A stretch of DNA of 58,084 nucleotides from an uncultured Lachnospiraceae bacterium. Lineage in GTDB: Bacteria > Bacillota > Clostridia > Lachnospirales > Lachnospiraceae. Below are positions 140 through 39,338 of the stretch, piece after piece; the stretch's first letter is position 1; each line of letters starts with the position of its first letter. The stretch lies in assembly GCA_949740725.1 (NCBI GenBank), contig CATJIO010000115.1, forward strand, positions 1 to 58,084. Direction: 5' to 3'. The notes beneath the pieces are model-generated. The model searched no databases. It was not told the DNA's origin and worked only from the letters and a program-made list of their open reading frames with translations. The position numbers and the translations under genes were made by a program.

Positions 140-931
140 ATGAATATGACAGGTTTGCTTTTAGCGGCGGTCATCATCGGTGCGATCGGTATTATTATCG
201 GTGTGCTCCTGGGGATTGCCAGTGAAGCGTTTAAGGTAGAAGTAGACGAGAAGGAAATCCTGGTCCGCGCCGAGCTGCCCGGCAATAACTGTGGCGGCTG
301 TGGCTTTCCAGGATGTGACGGACTGGCCGCGGCCATCGCAGCCGGAACAGCTCCGGTAAACGGATGCCCGGTAGGCGGCCCTGACGTGGCGGATAAGATC
401 GCCGCTATCATGGGTGTGGAGAGCGGCAGCGCAGATAAAAAGGTGGCTTTTGTCAAGTGCAAGGGCACTTGCGATAAGACGAGAGTGCAGTATAATTATT
501 ACGGCATTGATGACTGTAGCAAGGTAGCGGTGGTTCCCGGAGCTGGGGAGAAGGCCTGCGCTTACGGGTGTATGGGCTATGGCAGCTGCGTGAAGGCCTG
601 CCAGTTTGGCGCCATCCATGTGGTGGACGGCGTGGCTGTGGTGGATAAGGAGAAGTGTGTGGCCTGCGGAAAGTGCGTGGCGGCTTGTCCGAACCATCTC
701 ATCGAGCTGGTGCCTTATAAGGCGGAGCATCTGGTGCAGTGTTCTTCCCACGACAAAGGCAAGGACGTAAAGGCCAAATGCGACAATGGCTGTATCGGCT
801 GTACGCTGTGTACCAAGCAGTGTGAGGCAGGGGCCATCCACATGGATAATAATGTGGCAGTCATTGACTACAACCTATGTACCAACTGCGGGAAGTGCGC
901 GGCTAAGTGTCCGTCGAAGGTGATTTTGTAG
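140..931 (+). CDS. rnfB: RnfB, iron-sulfur subunit of the Rnf ferredoxin:NAD oxidoreductase
   Basis: 263 residues. An N-terminal membrane helix (about residues 4-28) is followed by the Fe-S cluster motif CGGCGFPGCDGLAAA and then by several 4Fe-4S ferredoxin motifs (for example CVACGKCVAACPNH, CIGCTLCTKQCEAGAI and CTNCGKCAAKCP at the C-terminus). In the family RnfB is the entry point for electrons from reduced ferredoxin on the cytoplasmic face. The start is the ATG after GGGAGG at 131-136. It is the last gene of the operon, as a rho-independent terminator follows at 959. Function is family knowledge; the cluster motifs are seen directly. Confidence 0.96.
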   Translation: MNMTGLLLAAVIIGAIGIIIGVLLGIASEAFKVEVDEKEILVRAELPGNNCGGCGFPGCDGLAAAIAAGTAPVNGCPVGGPDVADKIAAIMGVESGSADKKVAFVKCKGTCDKTRVQYNYYGIDDCSKVAVVPGAGEKACAYGCMGYGSCVKACQFGAIHVVDGVAVVDKEKCVACGKCVAACPNHLIELVPYKAEHLVQCSSHDKGKDVKAKCDNGCIGCTLCTKQCEAGAIHMDNNVAVIDYNLCTNCGKCAAKCPSKVIL

Positions 932-28853: not shown

Positions 28854-29420
28854 ATGGAGAATTTGATTGGGAGAGAGTTGGAGGACTTTCGGGTCCAAGC
28901 CTATTGCCGGGGGGCGTTTCAGGAGGTGTCCAAGGGAGATTTGCTGGGGCACTGGTCAGTGCTGTTTTTCTATCCGGCGGATTTTACCTTTGTGTGCCCT
29001 ACTGAATTAGGGGATCTTCAGGACTTCTATGAAAAATTTCAGGAGATCGGCTGTGAGATTTACTCGGTTTCAGAGGATACCCATTTCGTGCACAAGGCAT
29101 GGGCAGATGCCTCGGAGACCATCAAAAGGATCCAGTACACCATGCTGGGGGATCCGGCGGGGGTGCTGGCCAGGCAGTTTGGCGTGCTGGTGGAAGAGGA
29201 GGGACAGGCCCTGAGGGGGACCTTTATCCTGAATCCAGAGGGCCGGGTGAAGGCCTATGAAATTCACGATATGGGCATTGGACGGAACGCGGAGGAGCTT
29301 TTGCGGAAGGTGCAGGCGGCCCAGTTTGTGGAGGAGCACGGTGACCAGGTGTGTCCGGCCAAATGGAAGCCAGGGGAAGAGACGCTGACGCCCAGTCTGG
29401 ATTTAGTGGGGTTGCTGTGA
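28854..29420 (+). CDS. ahpC: AhpC/Prx-type 2-Cys peroxiredoxin
   Basis: 188 residues. Peroxidatic cysteine in PADFTFVCPTELGD and resolving cysteine in DQVCPAKWKPGEETL define a typical 2-Cys Prx1/AhpC enzyme that reduces H2O2 and alkyl peroxides. Its TGA overlaps the ATG of the next gene by one base (29420), so the reductant partner is translationally coupled. It lies 45 bases after galT with AAAGGAG upstream. Confidence 0.93.
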   Translation: MENLIGRELEDFRVQAYCRGAFQEVSKGDLLGHWSVLFFYPADFTFVCPTELGDLQDFYEKFQEIGCEIYSVSEDTHFVHKAWADASETIKRIQYTMLGDPAGVLARQFGVLVEEEGQALRGTFILNPEGRVKAYEIHDMGIGRNAEELLRKVQAAQFVEEHGDQVCPAKWKPGEETLTPSLDLVGLL

Positions 29421-30082
29421 TGATTGATTGTATGCAGATTTCAGCGGACAGCCCACTGCTGGACGAGAAGACTAGGGAGACTATCCACGGCGTCTTCGGA
29501 AAACTTAACCAGGATGTGGTGATCAAGGCAGTGGTGGACATGAAGGAAGAAAAGTCGCTGGAAATGGCTTCCTTCCTTCGGACATTGACCGAATTAAGCG
29601 ACCATATCGCCCTGGAGCTTTATGAGCCTTTGGACGGGGCTGATCTTGGGATGGAGATCAGCCATCTTCCGGCTACCGGATTATTTTTTAACGGGGAATA
29701 CACTGGTGTTTCCTTCCATGGAGTTCCAGGAGGGAAGGAGATTAATTCCTTTGTGATCGGGATTTACAACCTGGCAGGGCCTGGCCAGGAGCTATCGAAA
29801 GCCGCGGTAAAGAAGATCGGGAAGCTGAAGCGCCCGGCCAAGGTAAAGGTATGTGTGTCCCTGGCCTGCCATCATTGTCCGGGAGTGGTGATCGCCTGCC
29901 AGAGAATTGCTATGTTAAGCCCGTTGGTAGAGGCAGGGATGTATGACGCCAACCTTTATCCTGATCTGGTGGAGAAGTTTAAGATTGAACGGGTGCCGCT
30001 GGTGATCATCAACGACAAGGATGTTTTTGCCGGCCCCCGAAGCATTGAGGATCTGACGCAGCTGCTTCTGGACGCCAAGTGA
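29420..30082 (+). CDS. Stand-alone AhpF N-terminal-like double thioredoxin-fold protein
   Basis: 220 residues from ATG 29420. Two thioredoxin folds are seen; the second has the redox CXXC in CVSLACHHCPGVV, followed by cis-Pro-like ERVPLVIIND. This equals the N-terminal domain of AhpF, which reduces AhpC, but the FAD/NADH reductase half is missing. The ORF ends cleanly, so this is a domain architecture and not a broken gene. Electrons must come from another thioredoxin reductase or ferredoxin-linked enzyme. Longer in-frame starts overlap ahpC and are unlikely. Confidence 0.85.
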   Translation: MIDCMQISADSPLLDEKTRETIHGVFGKLNQDVVIKAVVDMKEEKSLEMASFLRTLTELSDHIALELYEPLDGADLGMEISHLPATGLFFNGEYTGVSFHGVPGGKEINSFVIGIYNLAGPGQELSKAAVKKIGKLKRPAKVKVCVSLACHHCPGVVIACQRIAMLSPLVEAGMYDANLYPDLVEKFKIERVPLVIINDKDVFAGPRSIEDLTQLLLDAK

Positions 30083-30465: not shown

Positions 30466-31035
30466 ATGGAGCAAAAGTTTTATGACATGGTAGAGGCGAA
30501 TCCGGTAATTGCGGCGATTAAGGATATGGATGGGCTTGAGCAGTGCTGTCAGCTGCAGGATGTGAAGGTAGTATTTGTCTTATTTGGTGATATCTGCAAT
30601 ATTACCCAGATTGTAAAGGAGATCCGGGAGTCCGGGAAGCTTGCCATCGTCCATGTGGACTTGATTACTGGCCTAGGGGCCAAGGAGATCGCGGTGGATT
30701 TTATCCAGAAGCAGACCGGGGCCGATGGGATCATCTCCACGAAACCTGCCATGATCCGGAGAGCGAAGGAGTTAGGGCTGTATACAGTGATGCGGTTTTT
30801 CCTTCTGGATTCCATGTCCTTTGACAATATCGAAAAGCAGCTGGCGGCGGTGAAGCCAGATTTTGTAGAGATTCTGCCTGGCGTCATGCCGAAGATCATT
30901 AAGAGAGTCTGCAGGAGCGTTCGGGTACAGGTGATCGCCGGGGGGTTGATCACCGACAAGGAGGATATCATGGCTGCTCTTGGAGCCGGGGCCATGGCGG
31001 TGTCCTCCACCAACCGGAAGGTTTGGATGATGTAA
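30466..31035 (+). CDS. glpP: GlpP, glycerol-3-phosphate-responsive antiterminator
   Basis: 189 residues with the GlpP barrel: VVFVLFGDICNI, KLAIVHVDLITGLG, DGIISTKPAMIRRAK, PDFVEILPGVMPK and QVIAGGLITDKEDI. GlpP binds glycerol-3-phosphate and leader RNA and prevents premature termination. As first gene of the operon behind a leader terminator it should be autoregulated. glpK follows after 84 bases with no visible promoter between. Confidence 0.95.
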   Translation: MEQKFYDMVEANPVIAAIKDMDGLEQCCQLQDVKVVFVLFGDICNITQIVKEIRESGKLAIVHVDLITGLGAKEIAVDFIQKQTGADGIISTKPAMIRRAKELGLYTVMRFFLLDSMSFDNIEKQLAAVKPDFVEILPGVMPKIIKRVCRSVRVQVIAGGLITDKEDIMAALGAGAMAVSSTNRKVWMM

Positions 31036-31050
31036 AGACCGATGTTGTGA

Positions 31051-32616
<1,566 letters not shown>

Positions 32617-32757
32617 AGTGCTGCTTGAATAATGCTTTAATGGAATGCCCGGCGATCATCCACCGGCAAGATTGTAGCAAAATATTGTCCATAAACCTCC
32701 CGGACATGAGGGCATGCCCGGGGAGAGGCGAAGTAAAAAATGACAGGGGGAAATAAC

Positions 32758-33462
32758 ATGTTACCATACATAGCAGAATTTATCGGAACTATGCTGCTGA
32801 TCATCTTAGGCGACGGCGTAGTGGCAAATGTAACTTTAAATAAATCCGGCATGAAGGGGGCTGGCTCTATCCAGATCACCCTGGCCTGGGGCCTTGCGGT
32901 TATGATTCCCGCCTTTATCTTCGGCGCGGCATCCGGCGCGCATTTTAATCCGGCCCTTACCATCGCTCTGGCGGTAGACGGAAGCCTGGCCTGGGGCCTG
33001 GTTCCCGGATACATTATCGCACAGTTTGCCGGAGGCTTTGCCGGCGCATGCCTGGTATATGCCATGTTCAAGGATCAGTTTGACGCCACCGACGATGCAG
33101 GAACCAAGTTGGGCGTATTTTCCACCGGCCCGTCAGTTCCCAATATGCCTTTAAATATCTTAAGTGAAGCCGTAGGAACCTTTGTTCTGGTATTCGCCAT
33201 CAAAGGAATCCCGGCGACAGCAGCTCCCGGCGTAGAGAAGTTTATGGTATTTGGAATCATCGTATCTATCGGTATGTCTTTAGGCGGCCTGACTGGCTAT
33301 GCGCTGAATCCGGCCCGTGACTTAGGACCCCGTATCGCACACGCAGTCCTTCCCATTAAGGGCAAGGGCGATTCTAATTGGGGCTATGCTCCGGTAGTTA
33401 TCGCAGGTCCGGTGATTGGCGCGCTGATTGCTGTTCTGTTATACGGAGCTATTCCGTGGTAA
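32758..33462 (+). CDS. glpF: Glycerol uptake facilitator (aquaglyceroporin)
   Basis: 234 residues from ATG 32758, with AGGGGGAAA as ribosome site. Six membrane helices and both NPA pore motifs are present (HFNPALTIAL and ALNPARDLGPR); the Asp and Arg after the second motif are typical of glycerol rather than water channels. It lets glycerol diffuse in for trapping by GlpK. The 141-base gap from glpK holds no gene. Confidence 0.95.
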   Translation: MLPYIAEFIGTMLLIILGDGVVANVTLNKSGMKGAGSIQITLAWGLAVMIPAFIFGAASGAHFNPALTIALAVDGSLAWGLVPGYIIAQFAGGFAGACLVYAMFKDQFDATDDAGTKLGVFSTGPSVPNMPLNILSEAVGTFVLVFAIKGIPATAAPGVEKFMVFGIIVSIGMSLGGLTGYALNPARDLGPRIAHAVLPIKGKGDSNWGYAPVVIAGPVIGALIAVLLYGAIPW

Positions 33463-33520: not shown

Positions 33521-33613
33521 GTCAGAAAAACTGACTCAATAAAATCTATATATAATGATGAGAGCAGAGCCTGACAATCATACCGCGCGAAAAGCGCTTT
33601 GTCAGACTCTGCT
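33521..33613 (+). repeat. Nested inverted repeats between glpF and the glpA-like gene
   Basis: GTCAG-AAAAA-CTGAC at 33521-33535, a TATAAT at 33551-33556, then a long stem: GCAGAGcCTGACAA (33566-33579) pairs with TTGTCAGaCTCTGC (33600-33613) around an inner GCGC-GAAA-AGCGC. No T run follows. It may be a processing site, an internal promoter with operator, or a small palindromic repeat. The 33463-33677 gap holds no supported gene. Confidence 0.55.
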
Positions 33614-33677
33614 TCCGCGTTTGGCGCTCTGCCGCAGGGCGTGGGAAGGATTTAAGAAGGAAGAGAGGTCGGTTACT

Positions 33678-35114
33678 ATGTATGATGTCATCATCATCGG
33701 AGCAGGCGTATCCGGGGCGGCCGCAGCCAGAGAGCTGTCACGCTACCAGGTGAAAGCCTGTGTGCTGGAAAAGGAAGAAGATGTATGCTGTGGTACATCG
33801 AAGGCAAATAGCGCCATTGCCCATGCGGGCTATGACGCGGCCAATGGTTCTCTGATGGCAAAGTTAAATGTCCAGGGAAATAAAATGATGGCCCAGCTTT
33901 CTAAGGATCTGGATTTCGAATTTATCCAGAACGGTTCACTGGTGGTATGCACCGAGGAGGAGAACCGCCCAGGGTTGGAAGCCCTTTTGGAACGGGGGAT
34001 TAAGAATGGCGTGGAAGGCCTTCGGATCGTCGAGAGAGAGGAATTGGTGGAAATGGAGCCAAATATCTCCGATGAGGCGGTTGCCGCTCTTTACGCTCCC
34101 ACTGGCGGCATTGTATGCCCATTTAACTTAAATATTGCCCTGGCGGAGAATGCCTGCGCTAATGGGGTGGAATTCCGCTTTAACACACAGGTGGAAGAGA
34201 TCGAAAGGATCCAGGGTGGTTACCGCCTAAAGACCAATCAGGGGGATGTGGAGGCCAAATGCGTGGTAAACGCTGCCGGTGTATTCGCCGATGAGATACA
34301 CAACATGGTCAGTGAGAAAAAAATTACCATTATCCCCAGAAGAGGAGACTACTGCCTGCTGGACAAGACGGCGGGCAACCATGTAAAAAGAACCATATTT
34401 GCCCTTCCAGGCAAATATGGCAAGGGTATCTTAGTATCGCCCACGGTCCACGGAAATCTCATTGTAGGGCCCACGGCTATTGATATCCAGGACAAAGAAG
34501 GAACCAATACCACCAGAGCCGGACTGGATGAGGTGATTACAAAATGCGCCAATACGGTGAAGAATGTGCCTCTTCGTCAGGTGATCACTTCCTTTGCCGG
34601 CCTGCGCGCCCATGAGGAGGGCCATGAGTTTCTGATCGGCGAGCTTCCTGACGCCCCGGGCTTCGTGGACTGTGCGGGCATCGAGTCCCCCGGCCTTACC
34701 AGCAGCCCGGCCATCGGATGTATGGTGGCGGAGATCATCAAAGGGATTCTGGACTTAAAGGAGAATCCAGATTTCGTGGGAACCAGGAAGGGCATTTTAA
34801 ACCCGGAAACCCTGTCCATGGAGGAGAGAAATGCCCTGATTAAAGAAAAGCCGGCTTATGGAAATATTATCTGCCGCTGCGAGATGGTAACTGAAGGAGA
34901 GATTCTGGATGCCATCCACCGTCCCTTAGGCGCCAAGTCTTTAGATGGGGTAAAGCGCAGAACCAGGGCTGGTATGGGCCGGTGCCAGGCAGGCTTTTGT
35001 TCGCCCCGTACCATGGAGATTCTCTCCAGAGAGCTTTCCATGGATATGATGGAGATTACCAAGAGCGGCGGGAAATCTAGCTTTGTGGTAGGGACCAATA
35101 AGGATCAGATATAG
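33678..35114 (+). CDS. FAD-dependent glycerol-3-phosphate dehydrogenase-like protein (GlpA/GlpO family) with BFD-like Fe-S domain
   Basis: 478 residues from ATG 33678; a longer frame from 33555 runs through the inverted repeats and has no ribosome site. FAD motif VIIIGAGVSGAAAARELS, DAO core with STVxR-like CCGTSKANSAIAHAGYD, and NAAGVFADEI. The C-terminus has a BFD-like [2Fe-2S] domain (CRCEMVTEGEILDAI and CQAGFCSPRT), as in anaerobic GlpA. With the next two genes it forms the GlpA/GlpB/DUF1667 set common in Clostridia, which oxidises glycerol-3-phosphate to dihydroxyacetone phosphate. Close relatives oxidise 2-hydroxyglutarate, but the operon points to glycerol-3-phosphate. Confidence 0.85.
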   Translation: MYDVIIIGAGVSGAAAARELSRYQVKACVLEKEEDVCCGTSKANSAIAHAGYDAANGSLMAKLNVQGNKMMAQLSKDLDFEFIQNGSLVVCTEEENRPGLEALLERGIKNGVEGLRIVEREELVEMEPNISDEAVAALYAPTGGIVCPFNLNIALAENACANGVEFRFNTQVEEIERIQGGYRLKTNQGDVEAKCVVNAAGVFADEIHNMVSEKKITIIPRRGDYCLLDKTAGNHVKRTIFALPGKYGKGILVSPTVHGNLIVGPTAIDIQDKEGTNTTRAGLDEVITKCANTVKNVPLRQVITSFAGLRAHEEGHEFLIGELPDAPGFVDCAGIESPGLTSSPAIGCMVAEIIKGILDLKENPDFVGTRKGILNPETLSMEERNALIKEKPAYGNIICRCEMVTEGEILDAIHRPLGAKSLDGVKRRTRAGMGRCQAGFCSPRTMEILSRELSMDMMEITKSGGKSSFVVGTNKDQI

Positions 35115-35129: not shown

Positions 35130-36395
35130 ATGAAAGCATATGATATCGTAATCATTGGCGGCGGCCCTGCAGGGCTGGCTGCTGCAGTTTCCGCGAAAGA
35201 GAAGGGAGTGGATTCTATCCTGATTCTGGAGCGTGACAAGGAGCTTGGAGGCATTTTAAATCAGTGTATCCACAATGGCTTCGGCCTCCACACGTTTAAG
35301 GAGGAGCTTACAGGGCCAGAGTATGCCGCGAGATTTATCAAGCAGGTATTGGATTTAGGAATTGAGTATAAGCTTCACACTATGGTAATGGACATCAGCC
35401 ATGATAAGGTAGTTACGGCAATGAACCGGGAGGAGGGCATGTTTACTATCCAGGCAAAGACTGTTATCCTGGCTATGGGGTGCAGGGAGCGGTCCAGAGG
35501 GGCCTTAAATATCCCGGGCTATCGTCCGGCAGGCATTTACTCTGCGGGCACTGCCCAGCGGCTGGTGAACCGGGAAGGATTTATGCCGGGCCGTGAGGTG
35601 GTGATCTTAGGTTCTGGCGACATTGGCCTGATCATGGCGCGCCGTATGACCTTCGAGGGGGCGAAGGTGAAGGTGGTGGCAGAGCTGATGCCCTATTCTG
35701 GAGGATTAAAGAGAAATATCGTTCAGTGTCTGGACGATTATGGCATCCCCTTAAAGCTGAGCCACACAGTGGTGGAGATCCGAGGCAAGGAACGGCTTAC
35801 CGGAATTACTATTGCTGAGGTGGACAGCAAGGGAAAACCCATTCCCGGCACAGAAGAGGATTATGACTGCGACACCCTTCTCCTCTCTGTGGGATTGATT
35901 CCGGAGAATGAGCTTTCCAGAGGTGCTGGGGTGGAGATGAGCCCCATTACTTCCGGCCCCTTGGTGAATGAGAGCTTAGAGACCAATATCGAGGGTGTCT
36001 TTGCCTGTGGAAATGTGCTCCATGTCCATGATCTGGTGGACTTTGTGTCTGAAGAGGCAGGGGCGGCAGGAAGAAATGCAGCCGCATTTGTGATGGGAGA
36101 ACGCAGGACTTCTCAGGGCAGAGAGATTAAACTTAATCCCATCGAGGGCGTGCGTTACACCGTTCCGTCGGTGATTCATCCGGATCAGATGGACGACAAA
36201 TTGACTGTGCGTTTTCGGGTGGGCAATGTTTATAAAAACTGCTATATCAGCGTATACTTTGATGATGAGAGGATCAGCCGCCGCAAGCGTCCGGTGGTAG
36301 CGCCAGGGGAGATGGAGGAGATCAAGCTGGAAAGGGAAAAGCTGTTATCTTACCCAGATTTAAAAACCATAACCGTGAAGATCGAGGAGGCGTAG
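35130..36395 (+). CDS. FAD/NAD(P)-binding oxidoreductase, partner of the GlpA-like protein
   Basis: 421 residues. FAD motif IVIIGGGPAGLAAAVSAKE, then CIHNGFGLHTFKEELTGPEYA, a second nucleotide motif VVILGSGDIGLIMARRM and the closing GVFACGNVLHVHDLVDFVSEEA. It belongs to the pyridine nucleotide-disulfide family without the redox CXXXXC. In this gene order it likely passes electrons between the GlpA-like flavoprotein, the DUF1667 Fe-S protein and NAD(P). 15 bases after the previous gene, 3 before the next. Confidence 0.85.
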   Translation: MKAYDIVIIGGGPAGLAAAVSAKEKGVDSILILERDKELGGILNQCIHNGFGLHTFKEELTGPEYAARFIKQVLDLGIEYKLHTMVMDISHDKVVTAMNREEGMFTIQAKTVILAMGCRERSRGALNIPGYRPAGIYSAGTAQRLVNREGFMPGREVVILGSGDIGLIMARRMTFEGAKVKVVAELMPYSGGLKRNIVQCLDDYGIPLKLSHTVVEIRGKERLTGITIAEVDSKGKPIPGTEEDYDCDTLLLSVGLIPENELSRGAGVEMSPITSGPLVNESLETNIEGVFACGNVLHVHDLVDFVSEEAGAAGRNAAAFVMGERRTSQGREIKLNPIEGVRYTVPSVIHPDQMDDKLTVRFRVGNVYKNCYISVYFDDERISRRKRPVVAPGEMEEIKLEREKLLSYPDLKTITVKIEEA

Positions 36396-36398
36396 GCG

Positions 36399-36764
36399 AT
36401 GGAAAAGAGAGAATTAATCTGCATAGGCTGTCCTCTGGGCTGCCCGGTAACCGTGACAATAGAAGAGGGCCAGGTAGTGAAGGTAGAGGGAAATACCTGT
36501 AAACGAGGCGATGATTATGCCAGAAAAGAAGTGACCAATCCCACCCGCATCGTAACCAGCACGGTCACGGTGGAGGGAGGAAAAGATGTTACCGTATCGG
36601 TAAAAACCCAGTCCGATGTGCCTAAGGGAAAAATTTTTGAATGTGTGAAGGCCCTGAAGGGAATTGTGGTGAAGGCTCCGGTTCACATTGGCGACGTGAT
36701 CGTAGCCAACGCGGCAGATACTGGGGTGGACATTGTCGCTACCAGCAATGTGGACGAGAAGTAG
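36399..36764 (+). CDS. DUF1667 small Fe-S protein of the glycerol-3-phosphate oxidation complex
   Basis: 121 residues. The N-terminal LICIGCPLGCPVTVTI and EGNTCKRGDDYA supply four cysteines for a probable Fe-S cluster like that at the N-terminus of molybdopterin oxidoreductases. The rest is a beta-rich DUF1667 fold. It is regularly encoded after paired FAD oxidoreductases of this kind; a third-subunit role similar to GlpC is inferred. Separated by 3 bases from the gene before. Confidence 0.87.
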   Translation: MEKRELICIGCPLGCPVTVTIEEGQVVKVEGNTCKRGDDYARKEVTNPTRIVTSTVTVEGGKDVTVSVKTQSDVPKGKIFECVKALKGIVVKAPVHIGDVIVANAADTGVDIVATSNVDEK

Positions 36765-36796
36765 AAGGGACATGTCTGGGAGAGAAAGGAGAAGGA

Positions 36797-37000
36797 ATGG
36801 AAGAGAAAAAGAAATCAACTGGATGGGGAAACTTAAATGGGATCAGTGACGATGATAAGACCTGCGGCTTAAATGATATGAACTGCCTGGGAGACGAGGA
36901 CGATAAGAGCTGCGGCTTAAATGACATGAACTGTTTAAGCGAAGAAGAGGACAAGACTTGCGGCTTAAATGATATGAACTGCCTGGGAGAGAAAAAATAA
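36797..37000 (+). CDS. 67-residue microprotein with three identical-length Cys repeats
   Basis: From ATG 36797 behind GAAAGGAGAAGG. A basic-then-Gly/Asn N-terminus (MEEKKKSTGWGNLNGISDD) is followed by three 16-residue repeats, each D-K-(T/S)-C-G-L-N-D-M-N-C-L plus four mostly acidic or small residues. The nine-residue core CGLNDMNCL is identical in all three while its codons differ (GATATG/GACATG, AACTGC/AACTGT), so the peptide appears to be under selection. No signal peptide. It could bind metal or an Fe-S cluster, make disulfide loops, or be a modified peptide precursor, but no modifying enzyme is adjacent. I do not recognise the family. It sits in the glp-dha operon between DUF1667 and dhaK. 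Confidence 0.75.
   Translation: MEEKKKSTGWGNLNGISDDDKTCGLNDMNCLGDEDDKSCGLNDMNCLSEEEDKTCGLNDMNCLGEKK
36854..36997 (+). repeat. Three tandem 48-bp coding repeats
   Basis: Units 36854-36901, 36902-36949 and 36950-36997, each starting GA(T/C)AAGA and holding TGCGGCTTAAATGA. They fill the second two-thirds of the microprotein gene. Confidence 0.85.
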
Positions 37001-37137
37001 CTGGCTGCTGCGGGGCTGTAATCTGATAGGCATAATCAATGGAACTGCACAGCGCAGCAGGCTTACACAGGGGCCGTCCTGGCAACGGGTGGACTGCTGC
37101 GCTGATTTCAATTATGGAGAAAGGGGAGCGTTACAGA

Positions 37138-38127
37138 ATGAAAAAATTTATTAATGGAGTCGATCAGGTAGAGAATCAGATGATTCAGGGTATGGTAAAG
37201 GCATATCCCGGCTATTTGCGGAAGCTGGATTGCGGAAATGTAGTGGTGCGGGCAAATAAGAAGGAGGGAAAGGTGGCCTTGATCAGCGGCGGCGGAAGCG
37301 GCCATGAGCCGGCCCACGGCGGATTTGTAGGCGAAGGCATGCTGGACGGAGCAGTGGCTGGCGCCGTGTTCACCTCCCCTACCCCGGATCAGATCCTGGA
37401 GGGTATCCGGGCCATTGCCACAGACAAAGGCGTCCTGATGGTGGTGAAGAATTACACCGGTGATGTAATGAACTTCGAGATGGCGGCAGAGATGGCAGAG
37501 ATGGAAGGAATCACCGTAAAGCATGTGGTGACCAATGATGATGTGGCGGTAGATGGAAGCCTATACACGGTAGGCCGCCGAGGGGTGGCAGGGACAGTAT
37601 TTGTACATAAGATCGCAGGAGCCCTGGCAGAGACCGGCGCTGATTTAGACGAGGTCCAGGCAGTGGCCCAAAAGGTCATCGACAATGTACGCACCATGGG
37701 CGCAGCCATCGCCCCCTGCATTGTTCCTGCAGCCGGAAAACCAGGCTTTGAGCTGAGCGAAAATGAGATGGAAGTGGGAATCGGCATCCACGGTGAGCCG
37801 GGAACCCACAAAGAAGCCATGCGCCCAGCGGACGAAATTGTAGATATGCTGTTGGACAAGATTTTGGCGGATCTGGACTACTCTGGCAGCGAGGTGGCGG
37901 TGATGATCAATGGCGCCGGGGCGACGCCGCTGATGGAGCTGTTTATTATCAACAACCGGGTGGCGGATGTGCTGGCGGAAAAAGGGATTAAGGTTTACCG
38001 CACCCTGGTAGGGGAGTATATGACCTCCATCGAGATGGAGGGCTTCTCCATCTCCCTGCTAAAGCTGGATGATCAGATGAAGGAGCTTCTGGATGCCAAG
38101 GCAGATACCCCAGCCTGGAAAGAATAA
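37138..38127 (+). CDS. dhaK: DhaK, dihydroxyacetone-binding subunit of PTS-dependent dihydroxyacetone kinase
   Basis: 329 residues from ATG 37138 (GGGGAG upstream); in-frame codons back to 37039 have no ribosome site. It has SGGGSGHEPAHGGFVG (substrate site) and VGIGIHGEPGTHKE, where the His forms the covalent hemiaminal with dihydroxyacetone. The about 330-residue length without a C-terminal ATP domain marks the PEP/PTS-dependent type. Works with DhaL and DhaM below. Confidence 0.96.
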   Translation: MKKFINGVDQVENQMIQGMVKAYPGYLRKLDCGNVVVRANKKEGKVALISGGGSGHEPAHGGFVGEGMLDGAVAGAVFTSPTPDQILEGIRAIATDKGVLMVVKNYTGDVMNFEMAAEMAEMEGITVKHVVTNDDVAVDGSLYTVGRRGVAGTVFVHKIAGALAETGADLDEVQAVAQKVIDNVRTMGAAIAPCIVPAAGKPGFELSENEMEVGIGIHGEPGTHKEAMRPADEIVDMLLDKILADLDYSGSEVAVMINGAGATPLMELFIINNRVADVLAEKGIKVYRTLVGEYMTSIEMEGFSISLLKLDDQMKELLDAKADTPAWKE

Positions 38128-38297: not shown

Positions 38298-38921
38298 ATG
38301 GCAGACAGTAAATTAGTGATGGAAGTATTAAAAAGGATCGGAGAAAAGATCGAGGAGAAGAAGGAATATCTGACAGAGCTGGATCAGCCGATTGGGGACA
38401 GTGATCACGGCATCAACCTGGCCAGAGGTTTTGGCGAGGTGGAAAAGAAGCTTCCCACTCTGGAGGAAAAGGATTTGGGAACCATAATGAAAACCGTTGG
38501 CATGACGCTGGTATCCACTGTAGGCGGCGCCTCCGGCCCTCTTTATGGCTCAGCCTTTATGAAGATTGGCATGGCTTGGGGCGGAAAAATGGAGATTAGT
38601 ATGGAAGAGATTCTGGCCGGAATGGACGTGGCGGTGGAGGCAGTAAAGCAGAGAGGCAAATCCACAGTGGAGGAGGCTACTATGCTGGATGCCATGGTTC
38701 CCGCGCTGAACGCCATGAGGACGGCTGCAGAGGAAGGGCTGGAAAAGAAGGAAGTCCTGGAGGCAGGCTGCAGGGCTTCCTGGGCCGGAGCGGAGCACAC
38801 AAAGGATTTAGTGGCAACAAAAGGCAGAGCCAGCTATGTCGGTGAGCGGGGGCTTGGCCACCAGGATCCTGGCGCTACCTCTTTTTCTTTTATGCTGGAA
38901 ATGGTGAAGGACAGCCTGTAG
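38298..38921 (+). CDS. dhaL: DhaL, ADP-binding phosphotransfer subunit of dihydroxyacetone kinase
   Basis: 207 residues. DQPIGDSDHGINLARGF supplies the Asp residues that hold Mg-ADP. TLVSTVGGASGPLYGSAF and the closing GERGLGHQDPGATSF are DhaL signatures. It carries the tightly bound ADP that DhaM rephosphorylates. Confidence 0.96.
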   Translation: MADSKLVMEVLKRIGEKIEEKKEYLTELDQPIGDSDHGINLARGFGEVEKKLPTLEEKDLGTIMKTVGMTLVSTVGGASGPLYGSAFMKIGMAWGGKMEISMEEILAGMDVAVEAVKQRGKSTVEEATMLDAMVPALNAMRTAAEEGLEKKEVLEAGCRASWAGAEHTKDLVATKGRASYVGERGLGHQDPGATSFSFMLEMVKDSL

Positions 38922-38954: not shown

Positions 38955-39338
38955 ATGGTAGGTCTGGTAATTGTCTCCCACAGCGAAAATCTGGCAAAAA
39001 GTGTGGTGGAGTTTACCTCCATGATGGCAAAGGAGGCGGTGATTGCCCCGGCAGGTGGACTGGAAGACGGAACCTTTGGAACCAGCTTTGAACGGATTCA
39101 ACATGCTATTGAGAGCGTATACTCTGATGATGGGGTGATCGTCCTGATGGATTTAGGAAGCGCGGTGATGACCACGGAGATGGTGCTGGAGATGATGGAG
39201 GGGCAAAAGGTCGCTATGGCGGACTGTCCCTTAGTGGAGGGGGCAGTGATCGCTTCCATCAGCGCTGTGGGCGGAAAGAGCTTTGAGGAGATTTTGCAGG
39301 ATCTGGATAAGGTCAGAGAGATGAAGAAGCTGCAGTAA
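38955..39338 (+). CDS. dhaM: DhaM, EIIA-type phosphoryl donor of dihydroxyacetone kinase
   Basis: 127 residues, the single-domain form. The active histidine is in VIVSHSENLAKSV, and VIVLMDLGSAVMTTEM and CPLVEGAVIAS match the EIIA-mannose-like fold. HPr phosphorylates it and it rephosphorylates DhaL-ADP. The HPr and EI domains fused in E. coli DhaM are absent, as usual in Firmicutes. Last gene of the operon; a hairpin follows at 39379. Confidence 0.95.
   Translation: MVGLVIVSHSENLAKSVVEFTSMMAKEAVIAPAGGLEDGTFGTSFERIQHAIESVYSDDGVIVLMDLGSAVMTTEMVLEMMEGQKVAMADCPLVEGAVIASISAVGGKSFEEILQDLDKVREMKKLQ

Follow-up and report, generated by a model that had tools for sequence, protein, structure and literature searches.

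By analogy, the closest precedent in action for the microprotein analysed here would be CP12, which it resembles in being small, charged and (as predicted) disordered, in carrying cysteine pairs, and in standing beside a thiol–disulfide partner in a neighbourhood of triose metabolism. According to the available sections of the sources, CP12 is defined by its AWD_VEE core (PMC3906501), and CP12-like proteins include some that have their cysteine pairs and some that lack them (PMC3906501; PMC9406205). This core is missing from all members of the microprotein family that were inspected, so membership of CP12 fails; furthermore, the microprotein has no Pfam match (no CP12 row up to E 1 for 10 members), carries three equal C-x6-C repeats rather than the two different pairs of CP12, and belongs to a host among the non-photosynthetic Clostridia.

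A second likeness is to ranthipeptide precursors such as PapA, in which C-x3-D is likewise repeated within a short peptide and for which the accessible portion of PMC9413430 describes the chemistry of the C-x3-D link made by PapB. Unlike these precursors, the microprotein has no radical SAM maturase seen nearby and no recognisable leader, and it has cysteine-free relatives. Metallothionein-like and CFEM proteins, the latter a fungal extracellular family, are also small and cysteine-rich, but the window protein scores 11.5 bits against a CFEM cut-off of 22 (6 of 10 members match that profile, best E 0.058) and the cysteines of the family are optional.

Beyond these comparisons, Pfam, NCBIfam, PHROGs, PADLOC and PDB returned no significant match (best E 0.1 for one member in PHROGs, nothing up to E 1 in PADLOC), and the string CGLNDMNC was not found in the open-access literature searched. 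The earlier statement that no described family has this repeat therefore holds for the libraries searched, to which the family is new, while for the mechanism proposed CP12 offers a precedent. An EF-hand or dockerin loop was rejected because the register does not fit, and a toxin or phage origin was dropped after the PHROGs and PADLOC searches.

The microprotein gene and its conservation

The window, meaning the whole analysed stretch of 58,084 nucleotides, holds these features at the gene itself:

36787..36791, forward strand, ribosome binding site AGGAG, 5 nt 5' of the ATG, read from the sequence
36797..37000, forward strand, microprotein gene, 67 aa, pI 4.2, net charge about -9.5, six Cys
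36821..36844, forward strand, cryptic first unit GWGNLNGI, Cys-free, from sequence comparison with relatives
36863..36889, forward strand, Cys-pair unit 1, CGLNDMNCL
36911..36937, forward strand, Cys-pair unit 2, CGLNDMNCL
36959..36985, forward strand, Cys-pair unit 3, CGLNDMNCL

The ORF at 36797-37000 translates as MEEKKKSTGWGNLNGISDDDKTCGLNDMNCLGDEDDKSCGLNDMNCLSEEEDKTCGLNDMNCLGEKK, an acidic and hydrophilic sequence with three methionines per 67 residues in addition to its six cysteines; it starts 32 bp past the DUF1667 gene, and dhaK comes next. A preliminary description had recognised this 67-residue ORF, its three CGLNDMNCL units and its own ribosome site, all of which are confirmed, but had overlooked the Cys-free N-terminal stretch, which counts as a fourth unit because relatives read LGLNNMNGI (G314) or LGISNMNGA (G183) there; G713 has LGLTNMNGV. 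Spanning 36854-36990 with a period of 48, the tandem array scores 190 against 64 for the runner-up among the 18 array rows of the 58-kb window, and relatives keep the start, the frame and the units, which places the array far above chance.

The window's three 9-codon cores differ from one another by 0-4 silent and 0 replacement changes. Among 8 orthologues that agree in length (L017 and L018, which differ, were excluded), the 28 pairs sum to proportions of 0.78 for synonymous and 0.084 for non-synonymous differences; dS is computable for 12 of these 28, the others being saturated, and omega in those 12 is 0.02-0.10. Because silent sites are saturated and non-synonymous changes few, it is the protein, not the RNA, that is kept, as had been suggested from silent codon differences, and 36797-37000 is a real gene under strong purifying selection. 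A longer in-frame ORF from 36641 (119 aa) is not favoured, since in the DNA alignment the shared upstream part is DUF1667 coding sequence, the leader is unconserved and conservation restarts at the ATG. AlphaFold2, given 10 close sequences as input, returned a mean pLDDT of 44 and no secondary structure, and the microprotein is probably intrinsically disordered as judged by this model.

Relatives, repeat units and cysteine pairing

Relatives extend well past one strain: 22 genomes, the window's included, carry the microprotein or a relative with start, frame and units kept. This set combines the window's own genus and the contig-scan loci with G314, G235, G183, G304, G713, G1048 and six more genomes of the genus of G183; the contig scan supplied 9 loci, all confirmed by tblastn, of which L010, L011, L012, L014 and L016 overlap the own-genus set and were counted once. 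The gene is accessory: in the window's genus 6 of 11 genomes have it (own included) and in that of G183 7 of 10, which leaves five and three without it, respectively.

The family scan matched 10 of 397 genomes at E < 0.1, of which five (own, G314, G235, G183, G304) were accepted; G403, G029 and G238 were rejected because their frames contain stops or the match is a CSLPDMRL/CPLPDMRL repeat, G181 and G227 once their sequences were inspected, and own-genus scan matches in G011, G020 and G029 (E 0.07-0.49) were treated as chance. A pattern scan matched 50 of 392 genomes, with a true array only in the window, G304 and G713 (30 loci scanned, the others judged by their matched text; a reversed control pattern matched several genomes too). 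The class scan matched 4 of 341 genomes, own and G1048 being accepted and G748 (low-complexity repeat) and G829 (internal stop) rejected, and the phylum scan with a two-unit model gave, besides own, 7 weak matches (E 0.011-0.092). From 4 of 260 genomes matched in a further scan, own, G183 and G235 were accepted, the G103 match (E 0.0018) falling inside a 399-aa frame; two more scans gave G1048 alone among 32 and own alone among 181. None of 140 pattern stretches in viral contigs was confirmed as a relative, and plasmids yielded none, one Arthrobacter place at E 8 being disregarded. The tandem CSLPDMRL.INGRD or similar stretches of L032, L035 and L036 (G403, G238 and G029), in frames with stops, probably reflect a DNA repeat common to these three genomes and not related to the microprotein.

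The unit follows the motif x-[GS]-[LI]-x-[ND]-M-N-[GC], with Asn-Met-Asn at its centre, framed in the Cys form by a C-x6-C pair at unit positions 1 and 8; its Asn positions are conserved and the acidic spacers vary. Across 88 units from 22 loci, recounted with position 8 left free and one out-of-register match in L031 discarded, 52 carry both cysteines, 36 neither and none a single one, the fixed mid-unit pattern leaving strongly degenerate units (e.g., one in G1048) outside the count. The same all-or-none picture is given by distinct 8-mers (11 with both cysteines, 25 with neither) and by 46 distinct 10-mers: the two cysteines come and go as a pair. As had been anticipated, repeat number varies, with four Cys units in L017 (8061-8315, the last degenerate, CSLKDMNC), three in the other glp-type loci and two in the genus of G183.

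Only Cys-free units occur in the relatives of G304, G1343 and G1048, which retain the motif and its spacing behind a clear GGAGG 5' of the start; cysteines outside unit positions 1 and 8 number two in G1343 and one in G304. The Cys form is also the acidic one: pI is 4.2 for the window's peptide and 4.1 for that of G183, as against 5.7 (G304), 9.1 (G1343) and 10.0 (G1048) for the Cys-free relatives. The G304 copy (L031:8539-8736) is flanked by ACR3 and ArsD within an ArsR-ACR3-ArsD-ArsA-ArsC operon, apparently within a mobile region, and about 1.4 kb downstream of the G1048 copy, at L102:10038-11221, an EncFtn-like protein and an encapsulin (Linocin_M18) are encoded, another oxidative-stress neighbour.

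Since three relatives dispense with Cys pairs, the core role of the microprotein does not need redox chemistry. A multivalent docking or adaptor peptide in which Asn-Met-Asn does the work, the cysteines stiffen a loop or are incidental, and no redox sensing takes place would fit these relatives, with their strong ribosome sites, as well as the N-terminal unit, Cys-free in 22 of 22 relatives. It would leave unexplained both the all-or-none pairing and the match, described below, between the Cys form and AhpC/PDO-like genes, and is regarded as possible but doubtful.

Gene neighbourhoods and the AhpC/PDO-like pair

The genes surrounding the microprotein in the window are as follows:

28854..29420, forward strand, AhpC peroxiredoxin, TIGR03137 above its cut-off
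29372..30082, forward strand, AhpF/PDO-like dithiol protein with CHHC site, Thioredoxin_3 above cut-off; start codon uncertain (ORF opens 29351)
30466..31035, forward strand, glycerol-3-phosphate responsive antiterminator (G3P_antiterm), Pfam
31057..32616, forward strand, glpK glycerol kinase, ORF coordinates, named by sequence recognition
32740..33462, forward strand, glpF glycerol facilitator, named by sequence recognition
33555..35114, forward strand, GlpA-like FAD oxidoreductase with BFD-like [2Fe-2S] domain, ORF (start probably 33678), Pfam
35130..36395, forward strand, pyridine nucleotide-disulphide oxidoreductase family protein, Pfam
36399..36764, forward strand, DUF1667 protein, Pfam
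37138..38127, forward strand, dhaK dihydroxyacetone kinase subunit, TIGR02363 and Pfam Dak1 (ORF opens 37039)
38298..38921, forward strand, dhaL (Dak2), Pfam
38955..39338, forward strand, dhaM-like EIIA-man protein, Pfam

The preliminary description had named the glycerol/dihydroxyacetone operon and passed over the AhpC/PDO-like pair (28854-30082), 7-8 kb upstream of the microprotein. The PDO-like protein matches TIGR03143 (E 7e-56, over the C-terminal part of the model) and TIGR02187 (E 8e-34), both under their cut-offs, and the best model for the GlpA-like protein is type 2 glycerol-3-phosphate oxidase (E 1e-89, 301 bits, below its cut-off of 460).

The proposed co-occurrence with these genes was borne out, with DUF1667 directly 5' of the microprotein in 11 of 13 glp-type loci (the exceptions being L013, with glpF there, and L028, which starts at the microprotein) and dhaK directly 3' in 9 of 13. 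The rearranged locus L013 (2503-12907) reads glpP-glpA-oxidoreductase-DUF1667-PDO-glpK-glpF-peptide-dhaKLM-AhpC, so that the microprotein stays with dhaK and is parted from DUF1667. The window's genome also holds a second, diverged glpA-like/oxidoreductase/DUF1667 set (G000:C82:27575-27820), without the microprotein or an AhpC/PDO-like gene. The position before dhaK could suggest a translated leader or pseudo-gene-like ORF acting in cis, for example in dhaK attenuation, but the copies of G713, the genus of G183, G304 and G1048 are not before dhaK, silent sites are saturated and dN/dS is much smaller than 1, Rfam gave no match, and no terminator-like site lies on the microprotein's strand within 36300-37200; such a role is very improbable.

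Among Cys-type loci whose contig reaches far enough to be informative (L011 and L028 are cut and L133 ends after AhpC), the PDO-like gene is found in 15 of 16, made up of 10 of 11 glp-type loci and 5 of 5 from the genus of G183. Counting cut loci too, 13 of 19 Cys-type loci have AhpC: seven of glp type (window, L010, L012, L013, L014, L018, L029) and all six from G183's genus. In the stretches fetched for L015 and L067 a PDO-like gene is present but AhpC is not, and L017, with its four pairs, has neither gene in its 13-kb contig. By comparison, neither gene occurs in any of the three Cys-free loci (G304, G1343, G1048) or in any of five glp loci that lack the microprotein within the window's genus, where longer flanks were searched for G003, G004 and G006 and where L092 and L094 are near contig ends. 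In an all-against-all comparison of 364 ORFs from 19 loci, the PDO-like protein was the only protein-coding neighbour common to the glp-type loci and the genus of G183; one other cluster with the same span consisted of reverse-strand frames over the microprotein and DUF1667.

In the genus of G183, the stretches fetched around the Cys form hold no glp gene, and the order is spoVAC - peptide - AhpC - PDO - (MATE or) thiT, the last being a thiamine transporter gene. Outside the glycerol operon, the AhpC/PDO-like pair is the more constant partner of the microprotein. G1343 shows spoVAC - peptide - thiT in the same orientations as its congeners, with AhpC and PDO missing at the site and four units reading Y/F...G/A in place of C...C. 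AhpC, PDO and the paired cysteines are thus missing together, in one case and in a genome 76% complete, so that AhpC/PDO may lie elsewhere in it. Proximity of genes does not in itself prove a link; the loci are moreover related and their counts therefore not independent, coming down to some two separate associations and a single case of shared absence.

Two roles raised in the preliminary description lose ground against these neighbourhoods. Core repeats within a short peptide are common among RiPPs, and C-x3-D (CGLND in all three window units) recurs in 49 of 52 Cys units or close to that, as would suit a RiPP precursor with, for example, Cys-Asp thioethers of the PapA type. Some units nevertheless read C-x3-N, Cys-free relatives exist and no leader is obvious; a CxxxCxxC motif scan of 364 ORFs of at least 60 aa from 19 loci picked out only a ferredoxin (window 140-931) and, on the reverse strand, one frame that overlies coding sequence, no modifying enzyme being seen nearby, and a cyclised-peptide precursor is accordingly judged improbable.

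A store or chaperone for metal or sulfur ligands (Zn, Cu(I), Fe-S) would draw on the six cysteines and three methionines, on C-x4-M-x-C as a potential binder of soft metals, on the Fe-S and flavin enzymes encoded upstream and on the Cys-free relative in the arsenic operon. That relative, however, has no Cys pair (one Cys in total) where thiols would be most useful, the acidic spacers vary as well as the ligands, the conserved Asn are non-ligands, and no glp-type Fe-S oxidoreductase accompanies the Cys form of the G183 genus in the fetched stretches. The idea is weakened further by the all-or-none counts and by the three relatives without any pair, and serving the upstream oxidoreductases in this way appears unlikely.

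A candidate redox-conditional docking protein

The reading we prefer, tentatively and with a probability of roughly 35%, is a disordered multivalent docking protein whose Cys loops would close and open with the redox state of peroxide and the PDO-like protein, like CP12 in action without being CP12. Several copies of a short Asn-Met-Asn docking motif would be displayed on a small, acidic, disordered protein; oxidation would close each Cys pair into an intramolecular disulfide loop, reduction by the AhpF/PDO-like dithiol protein would reopen it, and one redox state alone would bind the partner. The best guesses for that partner are AhpC, the PDO-like protein itself or a triose-entry enzyme (DhaK, GlpK or the GlpA-like oxidoreductase), and the peroxide state would thereby be handed to glycerol use. 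A link between glycerol-3-phosphate oxidation and peroxide is plausible, since type 2 glycerol-3-phosphate oxidase is the best-scoring model for the GlpA-like protein, albeit below cut-off, the peroxide output of this protein being putative; the available part of a study of Clostridia thioredoxin systems contains no occurrence of glycerol.

At the level of sequence, purifying selection, all-or-none pairing, the AhpC/PDO link in two neighbourhoods and predicted disorder would support redox-dependent docking, while L017, the gaps in L015 and L067, the Cys-free relatives, the accessory distribution, a disorder prediction from 10 close sequences and the relatedness of the loci count against it. 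More broadly, and more speculatively, the microprotein may exemplify an Asn-Met-Asn docking repeat that is general among Clostridia and serves in several stress or metabolic operons (glycerol, arsenic, peroxide), into which a Cys pair would be built where a peroxiredoxin/PDO adjoins, and thus a non-photosynthetic counterpart of CP12 coupling peroxide state to triose entry; this wider generalisation is at present doubtful.

At minimum, a conserved protein family missing from the annotation libraries searched has come to light, and its natural series of Cys and Cys-free versions is a ready-made test of the proposed redox lock. Should the proposal be true, anaerobic gut bacteria would own a redox-conditional disordered regulator that is both modular and countable, built from units with or without a cysteine lock.
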